Virus record (IMG/VR): IMGVR_UViG_3300022752_000106
Span: 1 to 50,638 of that record
DNA from: a virus
Length of the DNA stretch: 50,638 nucleotides
Direction: 5' to 3' (one strand)
Shown here piece by piece: positions 274 through 50,575 of the stretch (its first letter is position 1; every line of letters begins with the position of its first letter). The notes under the pieces were generated by a model. It had not been told where the DNA came from and made no database searches. It saw only the letters and a program-made list of their open reading frames with translations. A program made the position numbers and the translations under genes.

Positions 274-1188
274 TTATCCGATTATACCTTTTAGCATACT
301 ATCTAAATCTAATCCTTTAGCTTTAAAAAGTCTTTTTACATCTGTAGATTGATATGCTTTGCGTAAAAGTGTTCTATCATCAGGTTTTTCTTCACCATCT
401 TCAATTCTTTTTATTTTAGCTGTAATACCTTTTAATGCTGTTTCAAATTGGGTTTCTTCTTCTGGGGATAATTTTTTAGAGTAGGCTATTTTACCTAGTT
501 CTTTTGCAGTTGGATCACTACCTATATTTTGTGTTGCTTCTTTATCTTCACTATCTACATCTGAATATGACACATCATCAAACCCATCATCGCCTTTTGT
601 GCGAGTAGCTACTCTTGTTTTAGGTTCACCTGCTGGGCTTTCTTTTTTATCTGTAGAAGATGGCTTTTCTGGTTTGTTTGGGTTAGATGGTCTTCCTTGT
701 GGTTTATCTGTTACTTTTTTCTTGGTTACTCCTGTTACAGATTCACCTTTTTCTAAAACACCTACATCAACTAATGCACCTATTAAAGGGTTAATTTCTT
801 GTTGTCTAACACCCATTTCATCAGAAATATCTCGAATACGAGTTTTTAATCCTTTTGAAGTTCTATTATCTAAAATTTCTAAAGCTTTAGATAATTTTTG
901 TTCACCTTTTTTAGTTGAATCTTTGATTTTGGATTGAATTCTTTCTTTTTCTTTTGGATTAGCTATTACTATATTCCAAGCCATTTCATTTAATTGATCT
1001 TCTTCAAGTTCCACAGTACCTCCAGATTGTAATTCCTTTTCAGCATCCATTTTACCAGTGGAACTTAAAGTACTATATGATGGGTCTTTTTTCAAATTTG
1101 GAATAGCTTTTTTTCCTGCATATGATGTTTCACCTAAAGCAGCTGAAATTTCTTCACGTATAATTTCAAGTAAACGGGATGTTTTCAT
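274..1188 (-). CDS. 304-aa protein with capsid-targeting-like N-terminal helix, function unknown
   Basis: Residues 1-20 (MKTSRLLEIIREEISAALGE) are an amphipathic helix with the same build as the N-termini of about ten other proteins here, resembling the T4 capsid-targeting sequence. Residues about 95-150 read like a small winged-helix region (SDEMGVRQQEINPLIGALVD), followed by a long Lys/Ser/Pro/Thr-rich linker (about 155-215) and a helical charged C-terminus. The ATATTTATA motif lies 14 nt upstream of the start, so late expression is likely. No family was recognised. A virion or head-packaged protein is an inference from the tag and the promoter only. Confidence 0.75.
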   Translation of the reverse strand: MKTSRLLEIIREEISAALGETSYAGKKAIPNLKKDPSYSTLSSTGKMDAEKELQSGGTVELEEDQLNEMAWNIVIANPKEKERIQSKIKDSTKKGEQKLSKALEILDNRTSKGLKTRIRDISDEMGVRQQEINPLIGALVDVGVLEKGESVTGVTKKKVTDKPQGRPSNPNKPEKPSSTDKKESPAGEPKTRVATRTKGDDGFDDVSYSDVDSEDKEATQNIGSDPTAKELGKIAYSKKLSPEEETQFETALKGITAKIKRIEDGEEKPDDRTLLRKAYQSTDVKRLFKAKGLDLDSMLKGIIG

Positions 1189-4884: not shown

Positions 4885-5115
4885 TCTTTTATCTACCCAC
4901 CAAATACAAATATATTCTGTTGGTCCAGCAGGAATTTTACCATCACCATTCCAATCAATATAATATTGACCTTCACACAATTGTGTTTTTTTATTCCATT
5001 TAGCACAGTTAGCACACATAGCACCACCATTTGGAACAGATTTTGCAGGTTGAAAACCACTAGGAAACTGTAGTTTTGGTTGGCTTGCTTCTTTAAGTAT
5101 GTCTATTAGTTTCAT
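4879..5115 (-). CDS. 78-aa four-cysteine protein with capsid-targeting-like N-terminus
   Basis: The tag MKLIDILKEA is very close to the T4 capsid-targeting consensus. Four cysteines at 34, 37, 47 and 70 (CANC, QLCEG, YICIWW) look like one metal site, zinc or iron-sulfur. A 'YYIDWNGDGKIPAGP' loop lies between the third and fourth. The layout recalls very small HiPIP- or zinc-ribbon-like folds, but the family was not recognised. Its start overlaps the next gene by 4 nt (ATGA). Confidence 0.7.
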   Translation of the reverse strand: MKLIDILKEASQPKLQFPSGFQPAKSVPNGGAMCANCAKWNKKTQLCEGQYYIDWNGDGKIPAGPTEYICIWWVDKRK

Positions 5116-5729
5116 TTTGTTTTACCCCATTTAGTACCTTTACCAGGTGTTTTACATTGAGATGCTGTTGGGCGACATGCTGGATATTTGGAGCGTTTTT
5201 CTCCTTCTTCACGTCCACATGCTTTATATCCTGTTATTTTACCATCTTTTCTGATTGGTGCATTACAGTCAACCCATCCACCTTTTTTACCAGGTGTTCC
5301 TTTACGTGCAAACCATTTGTGTAAAGATTCGTCTTCCTGGATAATTTCTAAAATAACTTCTTTTAAACCTTTCCAAATGGTTCCTTGACGGCATTTTACA
5401 ACAGCACCAGATTTGTAAGCAGATGGTTTATCGTATTTGCGATCTGCAATACGAAGGCATCTGTCACGTTTTTTCTTTTCTTCTTGAATATTTTCTTTAG
5501 TTTTAATAAATGTTAGTATTTTAATAATATCATTTAATTTTTTTAGAAAAATTTCAAATTCTTGTGGGTTGTTCTTAATATATTCAGCCCCCAAATCAAT
5601 AAAACCATTTATAGAATAATCAACTATAAGTGTATATTCTCGATAAAGATTAGGTTTTATATCTTTTATATCTAGTAAAAGAGTATCTATTTTATCTTGT
5701 AAAGGTTTTATTTGATCAAAATTGCTCAT
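5112..5729 (-). CDS. 205-aa structural-type protein with two basic phage modules (DUF5872-like C-terminus)
   Basis: Residues 1-80 are a helical, coiled-coil-like region. About 85-120 hold RCLRIADRKYDKPSAYKS followed by VVKCRQGTIWK, and about 135-205 hold SLHKWFARKGTPGKKGGWVD, CNAPIRKDGKITGYKACGRE and a basic Cys/Pro/Gly tail. Both modules are familiar from marine T4-like phage proteins; the second looks like DUF5872. The C-terminus is strongly basic, consistent with nucleic acid contact inside the head, though that is inferred. The start overlaps the 52-aa tagged gene by 14 nt. Confidence 0.65.
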   Translation of the reverse strand: MSNFDQIKPLQDKIDTLLLDIKDIKPNLYREYTLIVDYSINGFIDLGAEYIKNNPQEFEIFLKKLNDIIKILTFIKTKENIQEEKKKRDRCLRIADRKYDKPSAYKSGAVVKCRQGTIWKGLKEVILEIIQEDESLHKWFARKGTPGKKGGWVDCNAPIRKDGKITGYKACGREEGEKRSKYPACRPTASQCKTPGKGTKWGKTK

Positions 5730-10086: not shown

Positions 10087-10620
10087 TTAGTCTTCTCCAC
10101 TCCCAATATATTCGCTAACGAAAAATTTAAGCGTGTTTCCAACTTGTGTTTCAAGTTTTTCATTGTTCATTCCTTTAGCAATTTTAAAAGCTTTCATCAA
10201 AGCATCCATTAAATCACCTTCAGTACCTTCCATATCAGCAGCTACGTCTTCTAAACTACCTCCAGCAGCAGGTGTTTCTTCAGCAGGTACTTCTTCATCA
10301 GCAGGTATTTCTTCAGTTGTATCAGTTACTTCAACGTCTTCAACATCTTCATCTTTTTTCTTTTTAGCTTCTTCAAGTTCATCACTTGTAGGTTCATCTT
10401 CTAAACCTTGCATATGAGGAAAGTATCCTAATTCATCTCCATCACCATAATCATCATCTGGGTCTGGGTCATAGTCGTCAGGGTCACTAAGCTCAGCGAT
10501 GACCATTTCACGAATTTTATTTCTTAATAATTCATTTTCATTAAGTGTTTTAAATGAAGGATTTAAATTTTCAAGAGCTTTACTTTCCTTTAAAAATTTT
10601 TTTAAGTCAAAATTGTCCAT
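10087..10620 (-). CDS. acidic scaffold-like protein with capsid-targeting-like N-terminus
   Basis: The 177-aa protein starts MDNFDLKKFLKESKALENL (tag with FLKE at 9-12) and has LLRNKIREMVIAEL at about 30-43. The centre is very acidic (DPDDYDPDPDDDYGDGDE, then Glu/Pro-rich), and the C-terminus is a helix (DLMDALMKAFKIAKGMNNEK). An N-terminal helix, an acidic core and a C-terminal helix are typical of prohead core or scaffold proteins, and the tag fits capsid delivery. An ATATTTATA motif lies 20 nt upstream. Assignment as a core protein is inference. Confidence 0.6.
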   Translation of the reverse strand: MDNFDLKKFLKESKALENLNPSFKTLNENELLRNKIREMVIAELSDPDDYDPDPDDDYGDGDELGYFPHMQGLEDEPTSDELEEAKKKKDEDVEDVEVTDTTEEIPADEEVPAEETPAAGGSLEDVAADMEGTEGDLMDALMKAFKIAKGMNNEKLETQVGNTLKFFVSEYIGSGED

Positions 10621-11826: not shown

Positions 11827-14059
11827 TAATTTTGAATTTTTTTAAAATTGATAGTGTTTTAGTTGTATCTTTATGCAATATAGCTATACCCCCACTTGCT
11901 TTCCAAGCAGAAATATTTTTAAACATATCATCTATAAGTATGTGATTTGGGGCAGCAAATGTAGCTTTTTGAACAGCAGGTACAAAGATTTCTTTTCCTA
12001 CATTAGTTAAATTTTTTGCAATCCACATTTTTTTACCTTGAATTGCTTGGTTTAATTCAGGATTAAGTCGTTGATCAGAAGGTAAATTTAAATCTACTGC
12101 AGGTGCTGAAAGAATATTTGGGGTATAGGGAGAAATAGCTTTCCATAATTCTCTTCCTCCAGGTTGCCATTCTAAATTTGCCCAATAATCTTTTTCTTGC
12201 AAACCTTTTTCTTTTAATTTAGTTCTAAATAAATTCCAAAAAAAACTAGATCCTTGGGTATTAGCTTCTGCTGTTGACATGTCTGTTAATTGTTCATAAC
12301 CTAAATCAAAATTACATAATACGCCATCCATGTCACAATATATAGTGTATTTAGAATCAATATTTTCATTAAGTGATTGCATTGATTTTACACGTTCAAG
12401 TAATTTTTCGTCAAAATTAACTCCATGTCTATTTTTAAATTCTTTTACTAACTTGTCAGTAGGTAAACCTTTGTTTGTTAATAAAATATAAGCCCCTAAA
12501 TCAGCATCCATTTCGTCATCTTCAGAATATGGTCCTGTATGTCCTAAAAGCAAATGCGCTATTTCATGGGCTTCAACAAATTTTAAATCATTAAAATTCA
12601 AGTCTGAATCTACAAAAGTTTCACCATCAATGATTATTGTTTTATCTTTTGGGTAATAAAAACCATACCCATATTCGTCAAATAGTGGTTCTAAATTTGG
12701 ATAGTTTTCGTTTTCTTTAAAAACAACTAAAATATTTACGTCTGGTTTAAATGTGCTAGGATATGATAATTCATTGGTATTATCTTCTTCTAATAGTTTT
12801 TCTTTAAATTGAGATGGAAGTGATTTACCTTTAGTTATTGCTCCTAAAAAAGTTGTACCTGAAATTCCTAAAACAGGTAAAGTACTCATTTTAGCAATGT
12901 CTATTGTGTTACGTTTTAATTTGACTTTTTCTTCAGGGGTAAGAGAATTTTTATCTCTTAAATATTTTTTAAGTAATGGTCCAAATCCTTTTAAATCTTT
13001 TTTTTGAGATTTAAGAGCATCAAAAAAAGCTGTTGATTTTTCTTTTATTTTATCTAAAATATTTTCATTTAATTTTTGATCCCCAGTAATTGAATCTGTC
13101 CATCCTCTAAACATCATATTACCTTTTTCATATGCTTCTCTTTCTATTTCAGGTAAATTACCTTCTTCATTTGTATTTTGAGTTGTAATATTACCTAAAC
13201 GATTTTCACAATTTTGCATATGATGAATCATTTCATGCGCATATGAACGCATAACATCTTTTGGATGGCGATCCATTGTATAAAGTACTATAATACGGTT
13301 ATTCGGGTCGTAATATGCTGTTTTACCGAAGAAGTCTCTAGCATTTTCAATATCATCATTTACAAATTTTACTTTAGGTAAAGGACGAATATTCATGCCT
13401 TTATTTAACATAAATTTAGTAAGTGATTTGATTAATTTAGGGTAATCATGTTCACTTGGTTCAGCATATTTTACTTCATCAAGTGGTGTTTCAGCTAAAA
13501 TAGACCAAATTTTATCTTTTTCTTCTTGTGAAAGTTGAGTTGGAAGATAAGATTGGAATCTTTCTTTTTCACCACCAATTAAAGCCGCACGTGTATTTGT
13601 ACCACTAACTCTATCATCACCTTGTTCAGATTTAACTACTATTGTTTTAAAGTTAGGATATTTTCCTTCTAAACTATCAAAACGTTTTAAATCACCTAAA
13701 TCCATTTCACCTCGAATACCTACTACTGGGTAGAAAAATGTATCTGGGTTGTTTTTAATCATAGAAGCAACATCCGAAATAGGGGATGAATTTTCTGCTA
13801 TTTTAATTTCAACGTTAGATGGTAAGTATTTTTTGTAAATATCCCATATTTCTTTACTTTCCTCTTTAGAAACACCATCTCGGTTTTTATGACCAATTAA
13901 AACGATTACTTTTTCAAAATTAGGGTTTTTTGCTACTTCATCAACCAATGCAAAATGACCTACTGTAGGTGGTTTAAATCCACCAGGAATAAGAGCAATA
14001 CCTTTTTGCCCTTCTGCCTCTAATATAGGTTGTATAAGTACTTTAACGAATGAATTCAT
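11816..14059 (-). CDS. four-domain fusion: nucleotidyltransferase, two metallopeptidase-like domains, HAD phosphatase
   Basis: The 747-aa protein starts MNSFVKVLIQPILEAE (tag-like). About 20-170: cytidylyltransferase-type fold with GGFKPPTVGHFALVDE (HxGH-like GHFA) and SGTNTRAALIGG, as in NMN adenylyltransferase-like proteins. About 200-310: YAHEMIHHMQN, an HExxH zinc site. About 440-545: VEAHEIAHLLLGHTG plus an acidic downstream segment, an ImmA/IrrE-type HExxH site. About 570-745: YCDMDGVLCNF and HILIDDMFKN, the DxDG and DD motifs of HAD 5'(3')-deoxyribonucleotidase types. All key motifs look intact. It overlaps the zeta-like gene by 17 nt. Individual motifs are clear; the joint role is not. 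Confidence 0.75.
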   Translation of the reverse strand: MNSFVKVLIQPILEAEGQKGIALIPGGFKPPTVGHFALVDEVAKNPNFEKVIVLIGHKNRDGVSKEESKEIWDIYKKYLPSNVEIKIAENSSPISDVASMIKNNPDTFFYPVVGIRGEMDLGDLKRFDSLEGKYPNFKTIVVKSEQGDDRVSGTNTRAALIGGEKERFQSYLPTQLSQEEKDKIWSILAETPLDEVKYAEPSEHDYPKLIKSLTKFMLNKGMNIRPLPKVKFVNDDIENARDFFGKTAYYDPNNRIIVLYTMDRHPKDVMRSYAHEMIHHMQNCENRLGNITTQNTNEEGNLPEIEREAYEKGNMMFRGWTDSITGDQKLNENILDKIKEKSTAFFDALKSQKKDLKGFGPLLKKYLRDKNSLTPEEKVKLKRNTIDIAKMSTLPVLGISGTTFLGAITKGKSLPSQFKEKLLEEDNTNELSYPSTFKPDVNILVVFKENENYPNLEPLFDEYGYGFYYPKDKTIIIDGETFVDSDLNFNDLKFVEAHEIAHLLLGHTGPYSEDDEMDADLGAYILLTNKGLPTDKLVKEFKNRHGVNFDEKLLERVKSMQSLNENIDSKYTIYCDMDGVLCNFDLGYEQLTDMSTAEANTQGSSFFWNLFRTKLKEKGLQEKDYWANLEWQPGGRELWKAISPYTPNILSAPAVDLNLPSDQRLNPELNQAIQGKKMWIAKNLTNVGKEIFVPAVQKATFAAPNHILIDDMFKNISAWKASGGIAILHKDTTKTLSILKKFKINGE

Positions 14060-14792
14060 TTACTTTATTTTTTGCTACATCTAACGTATCAAATTCACGT
14101 TCTATGTCTAAAAGAGATTGTATTTCTTGATTTGTTTTTTCTTTATCTGCTTTTGATTTAGCTGCTTCCTCAGGTGTTTTAGGTTTTCCTACAGGCATAG
14201 GAAATGCTTTAGTTATTGATTGTGTATCAAATGTAGGATCAGCATTTTCAGGATCATTGTTAATAACAACTATATTATTCCCAAATGCTTGTTTGTAAAC
14301 ATCAATATTTTTTACTACACCTTCCCAACTTTTTAACACAGCACTTGTAGGTAAACTTCTACCGCGTTCAGCATTACGTTTTAAAGAAGTCATAGGTGAT
14401 ACATAAAGTAAAATCATAAATGTATTATACCCCATTGTTTCTAAATCTACTTTTTTTTTAAGTAAAGGATTTGAAGCTGCTCCTGTACCATCAATTATAA
14501 TATTTTCTAAAGATGCAAGTGCTTTAGCTTCTTTTTCTTTAGTTATTATTCTAGCTTTACCCATTAATTTAGCAGCTGAGGATAGTTCTTCAGGGGTCAT
14601 TGAAGTAAAATCTTCTTTTCCAATAGAATTTTTAAGCAATTTTTCATAGATATCATCTACGTTTATAATTTTAAAATTTTGAAGATTTAATTGATTAAGT
14701 ATAGTTGTTTTACCGGATCCAGCAGGACCTGCCATAAAAATAGCTTTAGGGTTTGTTTGGACCTCTTTTAATAATTGAATCAGACTTATCAT
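14043..14792 (-). CDS. zeta-toxin-like P-loop kinase with capsid-targeting-like N-terminus
   Basis: Tag MISLIQLLKEVQ, then KAIFMAGPAGSGKTTILNQL with the Walker A at residues 22-30. INVDDIYEKLL (about 43-53), IIIDGTGA (about 97-104) and MILLYVSPMTSLKRNAERGR (about 120-140) follow the order seen in zeta-toxin and related AAA_33 kinases, which phosphorylate small substrates such as UDP-N-acetylglucosamine in the zeta case. The C-terminus is a Lys/Glu-rich helix. Its stop overlaps the 747-aa gene. A toxin function is not shown; a polynucleotide-kinase-like role is the alternative. Confidence 0.65.
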   Translation of the reverse strand: MISLIQLLKEVQTNPKAIFMAGPAGSGKTTILNQLNLQNFKIINVDDIYEKLLKNSIGKEDFTSMTPEELSSAAKLMGKARIITKEKEAKALASLENIIIDGTGAASNPLLKKKVDLETMGYNTFMILLYVSPMTSLKRNAERGRSLPTSAVLKSWEGVVKNIDVYKQAFGNNIVVINNDPENADPTFDTQSITKAFPMPVGKPKTPEEAAKSKADKEKTNQEIQSLLDIEREFDTLDVAKNKVNEFIR

Positions 14793-29104: not shown

Positions 29105-29509
29105 TTAAAATTCAAATGTAATGTTATCAGATATACCAGTATTAAGAACGGTGTATGTTAAAGAAATAGTTATTTGGTTTGTATCAGGTTGACCTGTAAC
29201 TACTAAATCATTAACTATAATGTTAGGAAAATATAAAGATATTTTATTATTTATATCTTCTCTTAAAAAATTTAAATTATCAGCATTTATTTGTTCAAAT
29301 ATAAAAGATTTTAACCCTCCCCCAAATAATGGGTTCATAAATCTTTCTCCAGAATTTGTTAAAAAAAAATTGATTAGATTATTTTTTACTGCATCTTTAG
29401 TTTGATAATTAGATATAAAAACAGCAGGACCACTAAAAGGAAGATTTACCCCAACCGCAACACTTGGTTGAAAATCTATAGGAGCTATCTGTTGGGGGCT
29501 AAATGGCAT
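29105..29509 (-). CDS. 25: baseplate wedge protein, gp25-like
   Basis: At 134 aa it has the length of T4 gp25. KDAVKNNLINFFLTNSGERF (about 37-56) followed by MNPLFGGGLKSFIFEQIN matches the 'xSIxxxLLxxxGxRxxxPxFG' core of the GPW/gp25 family, and a C-terminal 'ITISLTYTVLNTG' strand completes it. gp25 helps fix the baseplate wedge and sheath start. It touches the 111-aa gene by 1 nt. Confidence 0.88.
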   Translation of the reverse strand: MPFSPQQIAPIDFQPSVAVGVNLPFSGPAVFISNYQTKDAVKNNLINFFLTNSGERFMNPLFGGGLKSFIFEQINADNLNFLREDINNKISLYFPNIIVNDLVVTGQPDTNQITISLTYTVLNTGISDNITFEF

Positions 29510-29844
29510 TATTTACTATTCAATAAATTCATAATTTGATCCATTCCTACTTCACCAGTACCTAAATTTCCATTTACAGGGTCACTTACTTGTGGCCTAA
29601 ATGGTACTTGAGCATCACGTGAAGTAAAACTTAAAGCAGTTTCATTCATAACATCCATATATGCCTGCCTTGCATTCATTGTAGGAGGGGTAAATGTTGG
29701 TTTTGGTGTATCTATTGCTTGAATAGATTCTTTTACAATAGTTTTTGGGGCACGAACTGCTTCTAAAAGAATATCTCTTAATTCTTCTTGGATTACTTCC
29801 CTTACAGCTTCTTTAATTAATTTTTTTAATATGTCAGTTTTCAT
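29509..29844 (-). CDS. 111-aa baseplate-operon protein with tag-like N-terminal helix
   Basis: Residues 1-30 (MKTDILKKLIKEAVREVIQE then ELRDILLEAV) are one long amphipathic helix of the shared tag type (LIKE at 9-12). The middle is Pro/Thr-rich, and the C-terminus (GTGEVGMDQIMNLLNSK) is a short motif I have seen ending small phage virion proteins. It lies among baseplate genes, so the tag is not limited to one operon. A late-type motif lies 5 nt upstream of the start, very close for a promoter. Confidence 0.65.
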   Translation of the reverse strand: MKTDILKKLIKEAVREVIQEELRDILLEAVRAPKTIVKESIQAIDTPKPTFTPPTMNARQAYMDVMNETALSFTSRDAQVPFRPQVSDPVNGNLGTGEVGMDQIMNLLNSK

Positions 29845-43308: not shown

Positions 43309-43335
43309 CTTTTTCTTTCTTTTTATTATACACTG

Positions 43336-43345
43336 AATATACGAT
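43336..43345 (-). promoter_or_regulatory. early-type promoter box, variant ATCGTATATT
   Basis: 27 nt before the start at 43308; CAGTGTATAAT follows. Confidence 0.5.
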
Positions 43346-43361
43346 CTCTATTTTATGTTTT

Positions 43362-43583
43362 TTAGTCCTCTTTTGGTAAAGAAACATTATCAACAAATTC
43401 ACATACTTCATCAAATAATGCTGCGTCATCAATTGAATATCCTGATTTGCTTCGTAATTCACAATCTATAAGTTTACCTGAATCGTTTAACCATTCTTTA
43501 TAGATTAGTACTCCTTCTGTTGGGTGTTGAAGGATAAAAACATTTTCTGTTACTTGTTGTGATGTTTGATTTAAAATTTCCAT
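43362..43583 (-). CDS. 73-aa early protein
   Basis: MEILNQTSQQVTENVFILQH, strands VLIYKEWLNDSGKLIDCELR, and an acidic helix ending DNVSLPKED. The end is GAGGAC + TAA, a variant of the recurring stop signature. Not recognised. Confidence 0.55.
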   Translation of the reverse strand: MEILNQTSQQVTENVFILQHPTEGVLIYKEWLNDSGKLIDCELRSKSGYSIDDAALFDEVCEFVDNVSLPKED

Positions 43584-43609
43584 TTTTTCTTTTTTTTATT
43601 TATACATTT

Positions 43610-43619
43610 AATATACGAA
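43610..43619 (-). promoter_or_regulatory. early-type promoter box TTCGTATATT
   Basis: 26 nt before the start at 43583; AAATGTATAA follows. Confidence 0.6.
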
Positions 43620-43644
43620 ATCTTTTTTATATCTCTTATTCCTT

Positions 43645-43941
43645 TTATCTACTTTTTACTGATTCAATTACTGATGTACCTGAGTTAATCATTGCTATAA
43701 CTTCATCCCACCCTTCTTCATCTGCGGCCCATTCAATTTCATGTTTTTCATTTTTCATTTGCCAATTTGATACTGCATATCCCATTCCATCTAATTTAAA
43801 ATCTCCATTATCATTTTTTCTAAATCTTAAATGTCCAACATTATCACACATACATGATACTGTTTTGAATATTACTTCTCTTGCTCCTCCTTTAATAGCT
43901 AGTTTTGGTTGGTTTCTTCTTAATTCTACATACTTACTCAT
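43645..43941 (-). CDS. 98-aa early protein
   Basis: MSKYVELRRNQPKLAIKGGA, then VIFKTVSCMCDNVGHLRFRK with a CxC pair, DGDFKLD-like strands and an acidic WAADEEGWDEVIAMINSGTS end. No family recognised. Confidence 0.55.
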   Translation of the reverse strand: MSKYVELRRNQPKLAIKGGAREVIFKTVSCMCDNVGHLRFRKNDNGDFKLDGMGYAVSNWQMKNEKHEIEWAADEEGWDEVIAMINSGTSVIESVKSR

Positions 43942-43969
43942 AACCTTTATTTTTTTAATTTATACATTT

Positions 43970-43979
43970 AATATACGAA
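43970..43979 (-). promoter_or_regulatory. early-type promoter box TTCGTATATT
   Basis: 28 nt before the start at 43941; AAATGTATAA follows. Confidence 0.6.
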
Positions 43980-43995
43980 AGATATTTTAATAAAC

Positions 43996-44214
43996 TTAGT
44001 CCTCTATTTCAATCCATTCTTTGAAAAGAAAACTAACAGAACCATTCCCAAATTGAACTTGAATAATATCATCATCAACATTATCATCCACAATGTCTAC
44101 CTCAAATACTTCACCTTGTAATACTTTCTCCTCTTCCATTATTGGTTCTTCATCAAGATCAAATCCAATACAACACTCAATAAATCGTTCTTCTAAAAAT
44201 TTAATTTTACTCAT
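43996..44214 (-). CDS. 72-aa highly acidic early protein
   Basis: MSKIKFLEERFIECCIGFDL, then long Asp/Glu/Val stretches (EVDIVDDNVDDDIIQVQFGN) and FKEWIEIED. Strong net negative charge, reminiscent of DNA-mimic or enzyme-inhibitor early proteins, but no specific similarity was seen. The end is GAGGAC + TAA. Confidence 0.55.
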   Translation of the reverse strand: MSKIKFLEERFIECCIGFDLDEEPIMEEEKVLQGEVFEVDIVDDNVDDDIIQVQFGNGSVSFLFKEWIEIED

Positions 44215-44235
44215 GTCTTTTTTTTAATTTATTGT

Positions 44236-44245
44236 AATATACGAA
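44236..44245 (-). promoter_or_regulatory. early-type promoter box TTCGTATATT fused to a hairpin
   Basis: 21 nt before the start at 44214; joined directly to the hairpin at 44245-44266. No second TATAA element follows. Confidence 0.55.
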
Positions 44246-44266
44246 AGCCCTCTTAATTGAGGGCTT
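44245..44266 (-). terminator. hairpin directly upstream of a promoter box
   Basis: Stem AAGCCCTC / GAGGGCTT, loop TTAATT; located just after the stop of the gene at 44272. Confidence 0.7.
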
Positions 44267-44271
44267 CCTTT

Positions 44272-44607
44272 TTAAATTTTATCTTTAAACATCAATATCA
44301 ATTTATCTTCAAGTCCTGAATCTCTTAGGTTTTTTTCTTCTTCATCAATCAACTTATCTAAATCAATACCTAAATCTTTTAATTGTGATTTGAATTGTTT
44401 ATATCTTTCATAGCTTGAATCAACATCAATTCCTAAAAACTTAATATCTTTAACATCAATACCTATTTCTAAATCAGCACTAACACTACCATCTTTACAT
44501 TCATAAATGAATGCTTGGTGGTGTAATGTCATTTCAATTGCATCATTGTTTCCTAATTTTACTTCTGTTTCGAATCCAACCATTAATGTTTTGCTTGTAA
44601 TTTTCAT
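44272..44607 (-). CDS. 111-aa early protein
   Basis: Beta-strand N-terminus (TLMVGFETEVKLGNNDAIEM, HHQAFIYECKDGSVSADLEI) and helical C-terminus (KQFKSQLKDLGIDLDKLIDE). The alternating strands might form a barrel; no family recognised. Confidence 0.55.
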   Translation of the reverse strand: MKITSKTLMVGFETEVKLGNNDAIEMTLHHQAFIYECKDGSVSADLEIGIDVKDIKFLGIDVDSSYERYKQFKSQLKDLGIDLDKLIDEEEKNLRDSGLEDKLILMFKDKI

Positions 44608-44655
44608 AACTTTTTCTTTTTTTTAATTTAATTTATTTTCTCTTTTCTTACTTTC

Positions 44656-44665
44656 AATATACGAA
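44656..44665 (-). promoter_or_regulatory. early-type promoter box TTCGTATATT
   Basis: 48 nt before the start at 44607, the longest spacing in the series; no clear second element. Confidence 0.5.
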
Positions 44666-44688
44666 ATCTTTTTTATATCTTTTATTCC

Positions 44689-44922
44689 TTAATTTGCTCT
44701 TATTACTAAATTTAAAGGTATATCAAAACCATCCGGATCAATAACAGGTACAAATTCATTTTCATCTTCATCAAACACATATTCAATATCTAACCAATCT
44801 GTAACATCACAATCTTCAACATTCATTACTAATTTTGCTTGTGTTCCACAATCTGAGAGTATAATACCATAACCACAACAATTTGAATAGGTATAATAAC
44901 CGTGAATTTTTTCTTTTAACAT
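44689..44922 (-). CDS. 77-aa acidic early protein
   Basis: MLKEKIHGYYTYSNCCGYGI, then ILSDCGTQAKLVMNVEDCDV and DEDENEFVPVIDPDGFDIPL. Four cysteines (CC, C, C) may bind a metal. Not recognised. Confidence 0.55.
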   Translation of the reverse strand: MLKEKIHGYYTYSNCCGYGIILSDCGTQAKLVMNVEDCDVTDWLDIEYVFDEDENEFVPVIDPDGFDIPLNLVIRAN

Positions 44923-44943
44923 ATTTTCTTTTTTATTTACTTC

Positions 44944-44953
44944 AATATACGAA
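44944..44953 (-). promoter_or_regulatory. early-type promoter box TTCGTATATT
   Basis: 21 nt before the start at 44922; no second element. Confidence 0.55.
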
Positions 44954-44969
44954 ATCTCTTTTATATCTT

Positions 44970-45125
44970 TTAGTCCTCTAATTCTTCAATAACACTTTTT
45001 ATTGTTCCTTGTAAATAACCAATAATATAAGCATATTCTTCACTTTTAGTAGTAAACATTTTATCAGTATCAATGATAGATTTTTTTAATAGTTCTACTA
45101 ATCTTTTTTTTTCTTTTTTTGTCAT
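44970..45125 (-). CDS. 51-aa helical early protein
   Basis: ATG at 45125 opens MTKKEKKRLVELLKKSIIDT, then MFTTKSEEYAYIIGYLQGTI and KSVIEELED. Its second half resembles the 46599-46832 product (IIGYLQGTIKSVIEEL against TVGFLQGSINGTISFL), so the two are probably paralogues. The end is GAGGAC + TAA. Confidence 0.6.
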   Translation of the reverse strand: MTKKEKKRLVELLKKSIIDTDKMFTTKSEEYAYIIGYLQGTIKSVIEELED

Positions 45126-45143
45126 ATCTTTTTATTTGAATGA

Positions 45144-45153
45144 AATATACGAA
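45144..45153 (-). promoter_or_regulatory. early-type promoter box TTCGTATATT
   Basis: 18 nt before the start at 45125; no second element. Confidence 0.55.
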
Positions 45154-45169
45154 ATCTTTTTTATATCTT

Positions 45170-45637
45170 TTATTCCTCTACTTTAATTGCAAAATATATT
45201 TTTACTCTCAAATGGTTTCCGTCACTTGCATTTCCAACAACAACACCATCAATCACTGAAAATGCATGACCTTTCTTGATGACGAGGTATTTTCCTTTAG
45301 GGTATTTTTCAATAAACATTGACAATGTTATGTTTGTTGGTTTACCACCATTCTTTTGATGTCTTGCTGAACCTGGATACATTAGGTTTTCTTTTGGTAT
45401 AACTGAATATGGAATACCTTTGATATTATCCATCCATGAACTAAGTTTCAATGCAGTATTGAATGTGCCTTTTCGTGGTTGTCTTTTTAATTTATCTGCT
45501 GCAAACTTATGTGCAACGTCATATTCTAATCCAAATGTTGAAGCGATTGCTCTAACTACACAATCGTTATTTTCACCTTTAGCAATTGCACTTTCGTTGT
45601 ATCCAACAATGTGATCTGCTGAACAAATACTTTTCAT
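45170..45637 (-). CDS. papain-like fold protein, possible cysteine peptidase
   Basis: The 155-aa product starts MKSICSADHIVGYNESA. GENNDCVVRAIASTFGLEYD (about 21-40) sets a cysteine at the head of a long helix, and YPKGKYLVIKKGHAFSVIDG (about 113-132) puts a histidine at a strand start, as in papain-like (C39/NlpC-type) proteins; NASDGNHLRV could supply the third residue. Such Cys...His proteins are seen in phages of varied hosts. The ATG at 45637 is preferred over one five codons upstream because of promoter spacing (23 nt). Activity is inferred from the motif order. Confidence 0.6.
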   Translation of the reverse strand: MKSICSADHIVGYNESAIAKGENNDCVVRAIASTFGLEYDVAHKFAADKLKRQPRKGTFNTALKLSSWMDNIKGIPYSVIPKENLMYPGSARHQKNGGKPTNITLSMFIEKYPKGKYLVIKKGHAFSVIDGVVVGNASDGNHLRVKIYFAIKVEE

Positions 45638-45660
45638 AACCTTTCTTTTCAATTTACTGA

Positions 45661-45670
45661 AATATACGAA
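45661..45670 (-). promoter_or_regulatory. early-type promoter box TTCGTATATT fused to a hairpin
   Basis: 23 nt before the start at 45637; joined to the hairpin at 45670-45691. Confidence 0.55.
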
Positions 45671-45691
45671 AGCCCTCTTGATTGAGGGCTT
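45670..45691 (-). terminator. hairpin directly upstream of a promoter box
   Basis: Stem AAGCCCTC / GAGGGCTT, loop TTGATT, between the stop at 45717 and the next promoter. Confidence 0.7.
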
Positions 45692-45716
45692 CCTTTATTA
45701 AATTTCTATTTTACTA

Positions 45717-46100
45717 TTACAATCCTAATCCTTCATTGATTGATTGTATTACTTCTGATTCACTCGGTCCACATTCATCATCTTCTTCAACAATAAATTC
45801 ATCTAAACATGCTGTAATATGATCCATTGTTTCACTAACGTTAATACTTGCATCATCTATTTCAATTACATTTCCATATGTAATGCTAAATGTAACATCA
45901 TCCTTATCAACTAAATCACTTGCATTATAGTCTAGGGTTCGTTCAATTCTATCTGCAATTTCCTCTGCTAATTCTTGAGTGAGTCCTGCTTTTGTTCCGG
46001 ATTCAATTTGATTTATCAATGCTATTACTTTATCAATATCAACTTGTGATGATAATACTTTTGCTGCTTCTAACTGTTTTACTAATTCTTCTTTTTTCAT
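45717..46100 (-). CDS. 127-aa acidic early protein
   Basis: MKKEELVKQLEAAKVLSSQV, helical through LTQELAEEIADRIERTLDYN, then strands FSITYGNVIEIDDASIN and an acidic end FIVEEDDECGPSESEVIQSI. No family recognised. Confidence 0.55.
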   Translation of the reverse strand: MKKEELVKQLEAAKVLSSQVDIDKVIALINQIESGTKAGLTQELAEEIADRIERTLDYNASDLVDKDDVTFSITYGNVIEIDDASINVSETMDHITACLDEFIVEEDDECGPSESEVIQSINEGLGL

Positions 46101-46131
46101 AACTTTTATTTTTTTCTTTTTTATTTACTTT

Positions 46132-46141
46132 AATATACGAA
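46132..46141 (-). promoter_or_regulatory. early-type promoter box TTCGTATATT
   Basis: 31 nt before the start at 46100. Beyond it, AGGGCTTCC remains of a hairpin right arm whose partner arm is gone, a decayed form of the stem-loop cassettes. Confidence 0.55.
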
Positions 46142-46165
46142 ATCTATTTTAATTAAGGGCTTCCT

Positions 46166-46585
46166 TTATCTATCTTCAGTTGAAAATCCTGCTGAATCTA
46201 CTTTAGGTCCATTATCGATTATCATTTCAACTTTAATTTCACCATCTACAAAACGACTCAATTGTACTGTTTCAATTTTATCATCTTTTTCACATTCTGT
46301 TTTCAATTCATTTAACTGTTCTTCATTTTCTAATGCACCACAAATATAACCAGGTGAATCATAAAATCGAATTCGATATGAACCGTATGGATTTTTTAGT
46401 TCTTTGATTTCAAAATCATCTTCAGTTAATTCATTTAGTTTTTTATCTCCATCAATAATAGTTGCTGAATAATGGTAACCACAACTATTACAATTCACGT
46501 ATTCTTCTCCTGTTTTGTAGTAGAAATCATTGTATGCTTCTTGTCCACAATTTGGACACTCAATATAATCAATTACGCTTCCCAT
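46166..46585 (-). CDS. 139-aa zinc-ribbon early protein
   Basis: CPNCGQEAYNDFYYKTGEEY then VNCNSCGYHYSATI (cysteines at about 10, 13, 32 and 35) is a compact zinc ribbon. Beta strands follow (GSYRIRFYDSPGYICGALEN). No promoter box precedes it; the gene upstream ends 13 nt away, so it is co-transcribed. Likely nucleic acid or RNA-polymerase contact, but not recognised. Confidence 0.65.
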   Translation of the reverse strand: MGSVIDYIECPNCGQEAYNDFYYKTGEEYVNCNSCGYHYSATIIDGDKKLNELTEDDFEIKELKNPYGSYRIRFYDSPGYICGALENEEQLNELKTECEKDDKIETVQLSRFVDGEIKVEMIIDNGPKVDSAGFSTEDR

Positions 46586-46598
46586 TTTATTTTATTTT

Positions 46599-46832
46599 TT
46601 AAATTCCTAAATCTTTTTTAACAAAGTCCTCATCTTCTAATCGTTCTATAATCGCTAATGCTTCTTCATTTGCTAATTGTTCTTTTAGAAACGAAATAGT
46701 ACCATTGATCGAACCCTGCAAGAAACCAACTGTTCGAGCTAAATGTATATCTGGGTTGTTGAACATTTCATCTGATTCTTTTACTACTTTTTGTAGTTCT
46801 TCTATTACTACTTCAATTATTGCATTTTTCAT
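46599..46832 (-). CDS. 77-aa helical early protein
   Basis: MKNAIIEVVIEELQKVVKES, then ARTVGFLQGSINGTISFLKE and EALAIIERLEDEDFVKKDLG. Partly similar to the 44970-45125 product. It leads a two-gene unit with the zinc-ribbon protein. Confidence 0.6.
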   Translation of the reverse strand: MKNAIIEVVIEELQKVVKESDEMFNNPDIHLARTVGFLQGSINGTISFLKEQLANEEALAIIERLEDEDFVKKDLGI

Positions 46833-46856
46833 ATTTTTTTCTTTTTAATTTATTGT

Positions 46857-46866
46857 AATATACGAA
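46857..46866 (-). promoter_or_regulatory. early-type promoter box TTCGTATATT
   Basis: 24 nt before the start at 46832; no second element. Confidence 0.55.
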
Positions 46867-46882
46867 ATTTCTTTTAATAAGC

Positions 46883-47257
46883 TTATTCCTCTAATTTTTC
46901 TTTTAATATCTCTACATTGCTAGAATAATATTCATTCACTAACCAAACACCATCTCTATTTAAACAATAGATATATTCTACTCCACTTTCCCAACCTAAT
47001 TCAAATAAATGTTCAACTTTTAAATAACTAGTTGAATGTAAATCTTCACCTCTATCACGACAATATGCTACTGTATCTTCAGTTGATTCTCCTAATGAAC
47101 TGATATCTCCTAGTTCAATTAGTTTTTGTAATTTTTCTTTATCGTAGTGGTTGAATAATGTTTTACCTACACCATCAACATAACCATCAAAATGACAGTA
47201 AATTGAATTTACTATACCTGATTCGTTTTCAATTGCTATTCTACTTCTTGTACTCAT
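46883..47257 (-). CDS. conserved phage protein, MSTRSxI family
   Basis: The 124-aa product starts MSTRSRIAIENESGIVNSIY and continues CHFDGYVDGVGKTLFNHYDK then LIELGDISSLGESTED. This 'MSTRSxIxIxNxxG...CHFDGYxxGVGxxL' pattern is widespread in unrelated phages and plasmids with unknown function. A longer frame (from 47356) is open but includes the promoter region, so the internal ATG is used. The end GAGGAATAA is the recurring stop signature. Confidence 0.75.
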   Translation of the reverse strand: MSTRSRIAIENESGIVNSIYCHFDGYVDGVGKTLFNHYDKEKLQKLIELGDISSLGESTEDTVAYCRDRGEDLHSTSYLKVEHLFELGWESGVEYIYCLNRDGVWLVNEYYSSNVEILKEKLEE

Positions 47258-47278
47258 ATTTTCTTTTTTTATACACTC

Positions 47279-47288
47279 AATATATGAA
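47279..47288 (-). promoter_or_regulatory. early-type promoter box, variant TTCATATATT
   Basis: About 21 nt before the start at 47257; GAGTGTATAA follows. Confidence 0.5.
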
Positions 47289-47300
47289 ATTTCTTTTAAA

Positions 47301-47513
47301 TTATCTATTCCTTTTAAATAATAATTTCTCAACAGCTTCCATAATTTGGGTTTCATATTCTCTCTTCATTACTTCCTTAGGATAACCTTCAGGTAAATCA
47401 TCTAAATTATCTAATTGCCAATCTAAAAATTGTTCAATATCAAAATAATCCCAATCATCACTGATTCCGAGTAAACAATCTGCTGCCCATTCTATTTTTT
47501 CTGCTTTTTTCAT
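47301..47513 (-). CDS. 70-aa acidic early protein
   Basis: MKKAEKIEWAADCLLGISDD then WDYFDIEQFLDWQLDNLDDL and a Lys/Glu helix (KREYETQIMEAVEKLL). The 10-codon extension upstream is A/T-rich leader, so 47513 is preferred. Not recognised. Confidence 0.6.
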   Translation of the reverse strand: MKKAEKIEWAADCLLGISDDWDYFDIEQFLDWQLDNLDDLPEGYPKEVMKREYETQIMEAVEKLLFKRNR

Positions 47514-47545
47514 AACTTTCTTTTTCTTTCTTTTTTTATACACTC

Positions 47546-47555
47546 AATATACGAA
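47546..47555 (-). promoter_or_regulatory. early-type promoter box TTCGTATATT
   Basis: 32 nt before the start at 47513; GAGTGTATAA follows. Confidence 0.6.
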
Positions 47556-47571
47556 ATTTTTTTTAATAAGC

Positions 47572-47856
47572 TTATTCCTCTGTTGTAAAAAGTTCAATAA
47601 TAAAATTATCATCACTTTCAATAGCAGTGTCTTCTAATGCTATAAACACTTCTCTCAGTGTAGTTGCTTCTTCAATTGATGATATTTTTTCTTTCCAATC
47701 TCGTTCAAATCGACGAAACGATTCTACTTCAAATTCGATATCATCCATATCACTTAGTTCCTTAATGTACTGGAGTGAATATCCATATGAACAATCAAAT
47801 TCAGTGTCCATCCACTCTAGCAATTGTTTTTTTCCTCTTTCAAAATTAAATTTCAT
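47572..47856 (-). CDS. 94-aa acidic early protein
   Basis: MKFNFERGKKQLLEWMDTEF, then LQYIKELSDMDDIEFEVESF and a helical, acidic end (EDTAIESDDNFIIELFTTEE) whose final codons form GAGGAATAA with the stop. It starts 4 nt inside the upstream gene's end, so it is translated with it. Confidence 0.6.
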   Translation of the reverse strand: MKFNFERGKKQLLEWMDTEFDCSYGYSLQYIKELSDMDDIEFEVESFRRFERDWKEKISSIEEATTLREVFIALEDTAIESDDNFIIELFTTEE

Positions 47857-48056
47857 AATCCTAAATCTTTACGTTCTTCAATTAAATACTCTACTTGTTC
47901 AATTGGCATTGTTAACATTAATTGTCTTAACATTTGCCAATCCATTCCTACTTCTTTTAAAATGTGTTGCATTGTTTCACCATCCACTTCTATATCTTTG
48001 AGTACATCAATTATTAATTTAACTCTTTGTGGATTTTCTTTCATTTTTTCTGTCAT
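47853..48056 (-). CDS. 67-aa helical early protein
   Basis: MTEKMKENPQRVKLIIDVLK, then VDGETMQHILKEVGMDWQML and RQLMLTMPIEQVEYLIEERK. Helix-turn-helix-like spacing is possible but not convincing. The start at 48056 follows the AAAAGTT leader; the longer frame overlaps the gene upstream. Confidence 0.55.
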   Translation of the reverse strand: MTEKMKENPQRVKLIIDVLKDIEVDGETMQHILKEVGMDWQMLRQLMLTMPIEQVEYLIEERKDLGL

Positions 48057-48061
48057 AACTT

Positions 48062-48292
48062 TTATTTTAATTGTGCTGTTTCCATTAACAAATTGATAAT
48101 AATTTCGCATGATTCTTTTACATTGTATCCATGATTTACATAAAATTCAATGATGTCATTTATATCATCACACATATTGATTTCATCTTTAATTCCATCT
48201 ATGTACATTTTTGGATCTTCATGTTGAACTTGTTCAATGAATTCAATTTCATTTTCAATAATTAATTCCTTCAATTCTCTTAATTTTATCAT
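48062..48292 (-). CDS. 76-aa acidic helical early protein
   Basis: MIKLRELKELIIENEIEFIE, then EDPKMYIDGIKDEINMCDDI and SCEIIINLLMETAQLK. It lies 5 nt before the 67-aa gene and 12 nt after the 92-aa gene in a run of four genes served by one promoter box at 48607. Not recognised. Confidence 0.6.
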   Translation of the reverse strand: MIKLRELKELIIENEIEFIEQVQHEDPKMYIDGIKDEINMCDDINDIIEFYVNHGYNVKESCEIIINLLMETAQLK

Positions 48293-48304
48293 AACTTTTA
48301 TTTT

Positions 48305-48583
48305 TTACCAATGATTACCATTATTTCTTGATGGGTTTTGAGCAAATGCTTCCTTACACATCTGTTCTACATTGCTATCTTTAAATGAACCCCATGGAAA
48401 TATACCTTCATATGTACCATATTGGTAACCTACCAAGTTTACCTTTACAATCTCTCTTAATACTTCCATTTCCTCATCAGTTTCAGCTATTTGTCTTGCT
48501 GATATTGTTCGTAATTGACCATATCTATCACAACCGCTTGTTCTGTAATGTTTAACTAATTTTTCTACTAACATTTCTTTCAT
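48305..48583 (-). CDS. 92-aa early protein
   Basis: MKEMLVEKLVKHYRTSGCDR, then YGQLRTISARQIAETDEEME and GTYEGIFPWGSFKDSNVEQM ending NPSRNNGNHW. First gene of a four-gene unit. No family recognised. Confidence 0.6.
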   Translation of the reverse strand: MKEMLVEKLVKHYRTSGCDRYGQLRTISARQIAETDEEMEVLREIVKVNLVGYQYGTYEGIFPWGSFKDSNVEQMCKEAFAQNPSRNNGNHW

Positions 48584-48606
48584 AACTTTCTCTTTTTCTT
48601 ACTTGA

Positions 48607-48616
48607 AATATACGAA
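48607..48616 (-). promoter_or_regulatory. early-type promoter box TTCGTATATT fused to a hairpin
   Basis: 23 nt before the start at 48583; joined directly to the hairpin at 48616-48637; serves four closely spaced genes. Confidence 0.6.
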
Positions 48617-48637
48617 AGCCCTCTTAATTGAGGGCTT
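48616..48637 (-). terminator. hairpin directly upstream of a promoter box
   Basis: Stem AAGCCCTC / GAGGGCTT, loop TTAATT, 6 nt after the stop of the 251-aa gene; the same stem as at 44245-44266. Confidence 0.7.
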
Positions 48638-48643
48638 CCTTTT

Positions 48644-49399
48644 TTATTGATTGTTAAACCTTTCTAACAATTCCTCTGTAGGAAGTTTATCAAGTTCAGC
48701 ATCAAACTTTTTGTATAAATGTTCTACGCCATTGTAAGTATCTAATTCAAATTGAACATAACTACCTGATTTGAATTTAACTTCAACTATTTTAAATGAA
48801 CCTTTATACTTAGTATAACCTTCTTTACTTGTCACTTCAGCATCTGGGTAGAGTTTTGTGTATTTTTCAATGGTGTTTTTTTCTAAATTTTCTTTTTGTT
48901 TAAATTCCTTGAATTGATTTGCTGCTTTTTCATTATGTAGTTTTAATTTTTCAAGTATTGTTTTTGGTTTATAGAAACGATATTGTTCTGTAATTGAACC
49001 ACATTGGATTTTATCTTTTTCTACATCAAACCAGAATTTGGCAGGTTTAAGTTTTTTATCTGTTTCCCATATGTAAAAATTCTGCCCCAACAAATATATT
49101 TGTGAATCACATTTTTCATATTCAATTTCAGTTTCAAATGCTGTATTGTTGTAGCTATAACCTAATGTTGTATTACGGGTTTCAACAGTTACTTTACAAC
49201 TTTGTTCAAAATGAACACCCTCAACAAAATCATTTTCAAGTAATAATTCTACAATTTGTTTGTGTCTGTTTTGAGCATACTCTGAACTTTTCTTTTGAGT
49301 TTTAATGTATTTATTTACTTGTTCTTGTTGTTCAGTTGTCAATAATATACCTGCAAATAAATCTAATTGAACGCCAATGTTTGATTTTCTTTTTTCCAT
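48644..49399 (-). CDS. 251-aa early protein, unknown
   Basis: The largest protein of the early cluster. MEKRKSNIGVQLDLFAGILL (the QLDLF may bind the host sliding clamp), then beta strands (CKVTVETRNTTLGYSYNNTA), a Lys/Glu helical zone (about 160-190) and a beta C-terminus (GSFKIVEVKFKSGSYVQFEL). The QLDLF motif at about residues 11-15 matches the beta-clamp consensus QL(S/D)LF exactly, which may point to a replication-related role; no domain was recognised. Confidence 0.6.
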   Translation of the reverse strand: MEKRKSNIGVQLDLFAGILLTTEQQEQVNKYIKTQKKSSEYAQNRHKQIVELLLENDFVEGVHFEQSCKVTVETRNTTLGYSYNNTAFETEIEYEKCDSQIYLLGQNFYIWETDKKLKPAKFWFDVEKDKIQCGSITEQYRFYKPKTILEKLKLHNEKAANQFKEFKQKENLEKNTIEKYTKLYPDAEVTSKEGYTKYKGSFKIVEVKFKSGSYVQFELDTYNGVEHLYKKFDAELDKLPTEELLERFNNQ

Positions 49400-49427
49400 A
49401 ACTTTTATTTTTTTAATTTATACACTT

Positions 49428-49437
49428 AATATACGAA
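49428..49437 (-). promoter_or_regulatory. early-type promoter box TTCGTATATT
   Basis: 28 nt before the start at 49399; AAGTGTATAA follows. Confidence 0.6.
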
Positions 49438-49460
49438 ATCTCTTTTACAATCTCTATTCC

Positions 49461-49865
49461 TTAGTTTATACTTGAATCCCAACTTGTTACTATAAAGTCT
49501 AATTGCAATCCTGTAATTTTTGTTTTACTTTCATTGCAAAATGCTTTAGCTTCAAAACCACCACAAGCATTTATAATTGCTACATCGTGATGAGTATCTT
49601 TAAAATCATCTAATCTACTTGCAGCAGCACCTCGCAATAAACGTTCTGCTTCTTCTCTTAAATCATAGATGGTAGGTGTTTCACCTTGCCATTTCCAATC
49701 TAAAGCATCCATAGCACGTTCTACTACATCAAAATCAAATTCATCCATGATATTTTTAATCATATATTCAAGATCCTTCACTACGGGTTTTGGCGGTTTA
49801 AGTGCTTTATTGATTAAGTCTCGTAGGTTTAGTAACTCATCTCTGTCTAAATTTTCTAAATTCAT
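49461..49865 (-). CDS. 134-aa conserved phage protein, unknown
   Basis: Helical N-terminus (LDRDELLNLRDLINKALKPP), then ERAMDALDWKWQGETPTIYD and a C-terminal GGFEAKAFCNESKTKITGLQ LDFIVTSWDS part. The 'LDWxW...PTIxDLxxEAxxLL' and 'GGFEA...LxLxFIV' motifs are familiar from many phages without a known function. Confidence 0.65.
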   Translation of the reverse strand: MNLENLDRDELLNLRDLINKALKPPKPVVKDLEYMIKNIMDEFDFDVVERAMDALDWKWQGETPTIYDLREEAERLLRGAAASRLDDFKDTHHDVAIINACGGFEAKAFCNESKTKITGLQLDFIVTSWDSSIN

Positions 49866-49882
49866 TTTCTTAATTTTATTGG

Positions 49883-49892
49883 AATATACGAA
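49883..49892 (-). promoter_or_regulatory. early-type promoter box TTCGTATATT
   Basis: 17 nt before the start at 49865, the shortest spacing; no second element. Confidence 0.5.
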
Positions 49893-49902: not shown

Positions 49903-50280
49903 TTAAGAATAGTCCTCTATTTTTTTAATTGATGAAAATGGAATTACACCTCTATATTCCACTGTATCTTCTTCATTATCTTGAACATTTTGATCTATGA
50001 ATAATTTATCTCCATCTAATTTACTAACATCAATTGTCAAAATTATAATTTGATCTAAATATGAATCAGGCACCATATCTGAAGATTCAGCATAACTTGC
50101 CGCTACATCAGGATCTTTTGCTAAATAAACATATCCTGAGATTGAATCTTCCCATGCTTTTTTACTTTTAGTAGTATCTAAACCATCTATTTTTATTTTT
50201 TTAAGTAATGGTTTATATGTTGCATGATACAAATATGGTTGATCTATTTTAATTGATTTAAGTATTTCTGTTAATTTCAT
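49903..50280 (-). CDS. ADP-ribosyltransferase-like protein with capsid-targeting-like N-terminus
   Basis: After the tag-like MKLTEILKSIK, PYLYHATYKPLLKKIKIDGL (about 15-34), GYVYLAKDPDVAASYAES (about 49-66) and VEYRGVIPFSSIKKIED (about 109-125) follow the order 'LYHxT...GL', 'xVYLxxxxxxAxxYA' and 'xExxGxIPxxxI' of small ART-fold proteins. The His of YHAT and the Glu near the end would be the NAD-contact and catalytic candidates. It lies among early genes but has an ATATTTATA motif and no TTCGTATATT box. Its target is unknown; other ART-fold activities such as 2'-phosphotransferase are possible. Confidence 0.6.
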   Translation of the reverse strand: MKLTEILKSIKIDQPYLYHATYKPLLKKIKIDGLDTTKSKKAWEDSISGYVYLAKDPDVAASYAESSDMVPDSYLDQIIILTIDVSKLDGDKLFIDQNVQDNEEDTVEYRGVIPFSSIKKIEDYS

Positions 50281-50283
50281 AGC

Positions 50284-50292
50284 TATAAATAT
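50284..50292 (-). promoter_or_regulatory. late-type motif ATATTTATA before the ART-like gene
   Basis: Minus-strand ATATTTATA, 3 nt before the start at 50280. It is the only such motif seen in front of a gene within the early cluster. Confidence 0.45.
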
Positions 50293-50296: not shown

Positions 50297-50575
50297 TTAT
50301 TCCTTACTTAAAGTAAACATCATTTCAGCTACCTCATCTGCTGTACAACGAGGCATTACATCACTATAACCATCTTTTAAAACAACCCATTTTCCATCTG
50401 AATATAACATCCATTCTTTATCTTTGTTCCATGCTGCTACTTCAGCTGTTGTTTTACCTTGATCTGAAAATGATGATTTTCCAAATATAACGCTAATAGT
50501 ACAGCCATTTCCAAATGTGATTTGGAAACCATCATGCCACATTTCTTCATCTACTACTGTTGCAAATTTTTTCAT
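50297..50575 (-). CDS. 92-aa conserved phage protein
   Basis: MKKFATVVDEEMWHDGFQIT then FGNGCTISVIFGKSSFSDQG, AEVAAWNKDKEWMLYSDGKW and VMPRCTADEVAEMMFTLSKE. The 'HDGFQixFxNGxTxSvxfG...AEVAAWxxxG-W' layout recurs in many phages; role unknown. The start overlaps the upstream gene's stop (ATGA). Confidence 0.7.
   Translation of the reverse strand: MKKFATVVDEEMWHDGFQITFGNGCTISVIFGKSSFSDQGKTTAEVAAWNKDKEWMLYSDGKWVVLKDGYSDVMPRCTADEVAEMMFTLSKE

Follow-up and report, generated by a model that had tools for sequence, protein, structure and literature searches.

ADP-ribosyltransferases (ARTs) packaged in phage heads have precedents (PMC9503650, PMC5512222), and surveys of phage ARTs predicted that many are head-packaged, as judged by fusion or gene neighbourhood (PMC9503650). 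T4 Alt, which is packaged and injected, is an ART of the R-S-E type (PMC5512222), and the N-terminal peptide in T4 is an established capsid targeting sequence, or CTS (PMC9958956, PMC3012670). A different ART clade, H-Y-[EDQ], has His on strand 1, Tyr on strand 2 and Glu, Asp or Gln on strand 5 (PMC5512222, PMC9503650). A literature search found no published description of a family of standalone H-Y-E ARTs that carry a capsid-targeting-like peptide, and no virion proteome or promoter map of phages of the type of Flavobacterium phage immuto.

The locus described here lies on a 50.6-kb virus fragment, which was analysed whole and is called the window below. Its likely genes are all on the minus strand. 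A late/structural region with baseplate genes occupies roughly the first 37 kb, and small genes are clustered in the early region, from 39.3 kb to the window end. The gp6-like protein of the window is 43% identical to that of immuto, and the gene order also agrees. The two regions are separated by about 1.1 kb (37900-39000) at 51-53% G+C in a genome of 30% G+C; this stretch is made of degenerate repeats of 8 bp and longer, rich in GGTNACC (CCAGGTAA, CCAGGGTCA), and has no match in Rfam. Two early genes, 39905-40237 and 41732-42055 (both on the minus strand), are paralogues built of repeated GRPVNxNSxRQ units, and each matches its own counterpart in the relatives G004 and G005.

One gene of the small-gene cluster encodes a product that starts MKLTEILKSIKIDQPYLYHAT and ends EYRGVIPFSSIKKIEDYS. 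Its fold and triad, the spread of its family, the statistics of tag and motif, and synteny are best explained by a probable late-made, head-stored and injected effector, Alt-like but belonging to another ART family that has no name; catalysis, late expression, packaging and injection are the predicted parts of this reading. A T4-like phage, whose nearest cultured relative by synteny is immuto, would make the ART late in infection. The enzyme, small, NAD-dependent and of the H-Y-[EDQ] type, would be stored in the head via its N-terminal targeting peptide, and it would be injected with the DNA and modify a host molecule as the next infection begins. Features are listed in the table.

Table. Positions in the window of the ART gene, its parts, its neighbours and selected late genes
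Feature	Position	Strand	Basis
ART-fold gene (predicted), standalone, 125 aa	49903..50280	-	open frame, 52 homologues aligned, AF2 model, PDB fold matches
H19 codon, strand 1 (16-22), first residue of presumed triad	50224..50226	-	52/53 sequences, remaining one a gap
Y52 codon, strand 2 (50-54), second residue of presumed triad	50125..50127	-	51/53 sequences
E108 codon, strand 106-110, third residue of presumed triad	49957..49959	-	51/53 sequences
Tag-like peptide MKLTEILKSI, codons 1-10	50251..50280	-	residues 1-8 pLDDT < 50; same place as homologue peptides
Late-type motif ATATTTATA, 3 nt before ART-gene ATG	50284..50292	-	enriched before late genes
Upstream neighbour	50297..50575	-	homologue G004 72918-73199, 91% identity
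Downstream neighbour, early-box gene	49461..49865	-	homologue G004 71278-71694, 82% identity
Early-type box TTCGTATATT of the downstream neighbour, nearest to ART gene	49883..49892	-	
Late gene with tag MKTSRLLEIIRE and upstream ATATTTATA	274..1188	-	
Late gene with tag MDNFDLKKFLKE and upstream ATATTTATA	10087..10620	-	
Late gene with tag MKTDILKKLIKE and upstream ATATTTATA, 5 nt before ATG	29509..29844	-	
Late-cluster DUF5872 gene, single	5112..5729	-	PF19197 E 2.6e-7
Late-cluster tagged gene MISLIQLLKEVQ..., Zeta-toxin-like P-loop kinase	14043..14792	-	PF06414 E 7.8e-11, synteny

AlphaFold2 on the single sequence gave a pLDDT of 46.8, and that model was set aside; the model used is based on the 53-sequence alignment and has a pLDDT of 85.2 and a pTM of 0.80, with only residues 1-8 below 50. 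A first-pass annotation of this DNA had claimed that the order of motifs fits a small ART fold, and had named structure prediction and comparison with ART folds as the check. The model and its H-Y-E triad agree with that claim: all 20 Foldseek matches in the PDB at E <= 1e-3 are ARTs, Tpt1/KptA coming first at E 2e-5. VIA-align Z scores are 12.6 for Tpt1 (8tg4), 10.1 for CC0527, 8.3 for DarT and 7.7 for Arr. By these comparisons the gene product is predicted to have an ADP-ribosyltransferase fold.

The presumed triad residues H19, Y52 and E108 are near-invariant in the family and stand in the model on the strands expected for the H-Y-[EDQ] clade; NAD-dependent activity is a prediction. Arr (PF12120), tried as a reference for the placement of the triad, gave no locus to align. 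The ART domains found in polyvalent proteins of phages (Iyer et al. 2017, PMC5512222; 2022, PMC9503650) have the same arrangement of His on strand 1, Tyr on strand 2 and an acid on strand 5, and some homologues in the present family are likewise fused in large multidomain proteins. Unlike those ARTs, this one has Glu instead of Asp, and the window gene is standalone, encoding a single domain where a polyvalent protein has several unrelated ones.

The best match, by fold and by sequence profile (E 6e-5), is the C-terminal NAD lobe of KptA/Tpt1, which favours an RNA 2'-phosphotransferase of that type, or some other ART acting on small molecules or nucleic acids, for RNA repair. This reading is improbable. 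A 2'-phosphotransferase is unlikely because the alignment takes in no more of Tpt1 than its C-terminal lobe (residues ~67-181 of a chain of ~180); the window protein is without the RNA-binding N-terminal lobe and differs in its conserved residues, and the family conserves H-Y-E, not the H-H-h of the RNA-repair clade (PMC9503650).

The family was gathered by two hand-built degenerate DNA patterns. A first tblastn search reached no further than Lak megaphages and one 484-kb phage, and related-locus searches with the window protein, a 3-row alignment or distant homologues found nothing. In all, 52 viral homologues were collected, 29-69% identical to the window protein, and with it they make an alignment of 53 sequences; L203 and L130 are 64-69% identical. 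Among the homologous frames, about 30 are long, fused or incomplete. The copy in Prevotella phage Lak-B1 (L004 2899-3399) is interrupted by a frame break close to its start, and that of Lak-B5 (L003) is intact. The same DNA pattern had 3 matches in 257 Gb of cellular genomes, with no clear member among them (best 13 bits). No model in Pfam, PHROGs or NCBIfam names this ART family. Some members have weak matches to KptA and one has a weak match to another ART domain, while PHROG 13493 (function unassigned) is matched by 12 of the 53 members at a best E of 4.6e-7 and by the window protein only at E 0.027. A match in Pantoea phage Phynn (E 0.07) was rejected; translated, it gives a long protein that is not an ART and whose gene lies next to DNA topoisomerase genes.

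Residues 1-14 of the window protein precede the ART domain. The N-termini of standalone homologues, directly before the domain, include MIKLIDILKE, MIKLLDLLKE, MIRLKDLLKE, MKRFSQFLKE, MKYIKIYEQFLNE and MEPLKTYSDFIAE. Two, L154 (which begins MEPLKTYSDFIAEG) and L283 (which begins MKYIKIYEQFLNEA), are close to the T4 capsid targeting sequence: L154 has LKTYSDFIAE where T4 IPIII has MKTYQEFIAE, the T4 ipII and ipIII starts being MKTYQEFIAEA. Like IPII and IPIII, most standalone homologues have an N-terminal peptide of about 10 residues ending in hydrophobic-x-E; unlike them, the cargo is an ART-fold enzyme, the final Glu has become Ser in the window copy, and packaging is a prediction. The window peptide ends ILKS, and it has an LTE at residues 3-5.

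Two hydrophobic residues, any residue and Glu stand before the domain in 17 of the 21 standalone members other than the window protein, against 10 of 33 unrelated YHxT proteins (Fisher P 6e-4); many of the unrelated proteins begin with the domain. Late-gene products of both the window and immuto begin with peptides of this type, and the tag-bearing proteins of immuto include gp93, gp92 and gp82. Low-stringency tag patterns also occur by chance: the window has 16 against 3.8 expected, and 7 of the 16 are in early-region genes. The tag and the upstream motif described below occur together with a Fisher P of 0.008 in G004 and 0.07 in the window, and not significantly in immuto, so strict coupling of the two is not claimed. 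The prohead protease of immuto is gp70, and its major capsid protein has, at about residue 59, KQIVSE|ANVTG, which resembles FLTE|A of T4 gp23. Since the window tag has LKS instead of LKE, cleavage by a prohead protease may fail, and it is mainly this Ser in place of Glu that calls for caution about packaging.

The motif ATATTTATA before the ART gene reads TATTTATA on the coding strand, the reverse complement of the T4 late -10 sequence TATAAATA. As a bare word it is over-represented only mildly: it occurs 10 times on the minus strand and once on the plus strand, with 5.5 expected in total, and 11 was reached in 2 of 100 shuffles. The signal lies in its placement. In the 30 nt preceding a start, ATATTTA occurs in 9 of 47 late-region genes of the window (0.63 expected), in 2 of 31 early-region genes, and in 30 of 232 genes of the 166-kb relative G004 (2.3 expected); TATTTAT is found in the same interval at 22 of 208 immuto genes (1.7 expected). 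A stricter form stands before the immuto terminase, tail sheath, tail tube and baseplate hub genes, by coordinates compared with the annotation. By this placement, the motif is a late-gene element in this phage group. Only 0.66% of minus-strand positions have it in the preceding 25 nt, and the start codon of the ART gene is closely preceded by a ATATTTAT-type motif, as in late genes of the group. Three ART homologues (L203, L248, L266) have the ATATTTAT core 4-7 nt before the ATG, and L245, from another, T4-like phage, has the exact T4 late motif TATAAATA 21 nt before its start; in several homologues the motif is absent before the start.

The gap between motif and ATG ranges from 1 to 30 nt across genes, so we infer no more than a possible -10 element. 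At the ART gene the motif is so near the ATG that a normal transcription start would fall at or inside the start codon, which sits poorly with the idea of an ordinary -10 element. ATATTTATA might instead be a feature of translation initiation or of A+T composition, not a promoter, and so say nothing on timing, as the 3-nt gap here and gaps of 1-5 nt at several other genes would suggest. We consider this somewhat unlikely in view of the excess at late genes over early-region genes, the orientation of the motif, which is specific, and the canonical TATAAATA at a normal distance in the homologue of a T4-like phage.

The locus can be set beside T4 Alt. Both have an ART fold (here predicted), a late-type upstream motif, a T4-like phage as host genome and a short N-terminal targeting-like peptide (MELITELFDE in alt, MKLTEILKS in the window). 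Unlike Alt, the window protein is five times smaller and has H-Y-E, not R-S-E. Comparison of the family alignment with T4 Alt by hhalign detected no sequence homology (probability 0.7%), and with neither homology nor the R-S-E active site the protein falls outside the Alt/VIP2 family. The first-pass annotation had described the N-terminus as tag-like and the gene as an analogue of Alt from a different ART family. The peptide is real and shared with homologues, though its last residue is S where the consensus has E; and the family does differ, while the LKS tag and the motif 3 nt from the ATG weaken the analogy.

Early genes of the window have their own box. Exact TTCGTATATT occurs 22 times on the minus strand and never on the plus strand, always within 39.56-49.89 kb (39559-49892), and with one mismatch allowed the count rises to 40 sites, where shuffled sequences average 9 and reach 40 in 0 of 100 shuffles. 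The box typically lies 20-60 nt upstream of the start codon, and nearly every early gene has one before it. GGAATA often stands before it in the window, and at immuto gene 128552 TTCGTATATT overlaps TATTTATA. The ART gene has no TTCGTATATT box before it, and none was seen before its upstream neighbour, from which it is separated by a 16-nt gap whose entire sequence is AAATATATTTATAGCT. The first-pass annotation had placed the gene inside the early cluster, with early boxes at its neighbours and a different, late-type motif of its own. These observations are borne out by the boxes nearby and by ATATTTATA, which is common to late genes and three homologues, though the gene stands at the upstream edge of the sampled part of the cluster, 358 nt from the contig end.

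No ART homologue was found in 41 close-relative contigs, including G004, and the gene is therefore accessory. G004 has the homologue of the upstream neighbour, then directly a TTCGTATATT box, two other genes and the homologue of the downstream neighbour, with no ART gene in the interval. Because the box directly follows the upstream-neighbour homologue, the site is early-type territory in G004 and G005; and because this junction has an early box and no ART, the window phage carries a late-type cassette between early genes. Such a cassette explains the mixture of boxes and motif that was first noticed. In the window the ART gene, with its own late-type motif, sits between early genes. The ART homologue of L203 lies among tagged late genes, between the counterparts of window 14804-15577 and 14043-14792 and directly upstream of the latter, and that of L130 also lies among tagged late genes, between the counterparts of 11816-14059 and 11254-11826.

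This context bears on two further explanations. The gene may encode an active ART that acts within the cell in which it is made, as T4 ModA/ModB do or in a defence, exclusion or toxin-type role, and that is not packaged, the tag being vestigial; the window tag without Glu (LKS) fits this, as does a place among early genes, perhaps with co-transcription from the upstream gene 16 nt away. We regard it as unlikely, given the late-type motif before the gene, the Glu-bearing tag in most standalone homologues and the late-cluster position in L130 and L203. That the family member is a catalytically dead or decaying relict is very improbable: its tag is altered and it is displaced relative to L130 and L203, but its frame is full-length, it keeps every near-invariant residue, and its identity to those two homologues is high, as given above.

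A packaged effector would also agree with the forms that the ART domain takes in relatives, where it may have two delivery formats, a tagged standalone protein or a module of a large late polyprotein. Some homologues are modules of proteins of 500-1200 residues, several with GVAE at domain borders. GVAE flanks the ART module at positions 49 and 168 in L229, 802 and 921 in L287, and 171 and 291 in L256; these sequences resemble prohead-protease sites and may bracket the modules as such. The large proteins with an ART module also hold GNAT, DUF5872 and nucleotidyltransferase domains, DUF5872 sharing a polyprotein with the ART family in L286 (E 1.9e-7) and L229 (E 6.3e-6, just under the cut-off).

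Late genes 14043-14792, 4284-4847, 4879-5115, 3595-4026 and 6725-7405 (all minus strand) have N-terminal tags of the same type. The tagged genes of the late cluster, including that of the Zeta-toxin-like kinase, are candidate injected effectors. A homing-endonuclease-like gene with NUMOD1 domains (5877-6662, minus strand) lies within this cluster. The 747-aa protein of 11816-14059 (minus strand) has a start suggestive of a nucleotidyltransferase (GGFKPPTVGHF) and a HAD-like end (CDMDGVLCNFD), and has no match in Pfam at E 0.01; its immuto counterpart is annotated NadR, and the NT5C gene of immuto is separate. The tagged proteins of L266 11751-12347 (MIRLIDLLREAKQVGILYHYT...) and L098 8407-8925 (MIKLLDILNESKQVGPLYHWT...), both on the minus strand, are possibly a second tagged ART-like family; neither matches the Pfam ART models.

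More tentatively, and with slightly less than even confidence, a short head-export code (two hydrophobics, x, Glu) together with late expression could load an interchangeable arsenal of enzymes, with cargo swapping between tagged genes and polyproteins cut by the protease at GVAE. The arsenal would include this ART, the Zeta-like kinase, DUF5872 and nucleotidyltransferase-type proteins. If this is so, injected effectors would be readable directly from sequence.

If the window gene does encode a head-delivered effector, head-delivered ADP-ribosylation would have arisen among T4-like phages in at least two ART families, and one such family would be nameless in current databases. The short tag would then be a sequence rule that predicts injected effectors among the hypothetical late genes of these aquatic phages.
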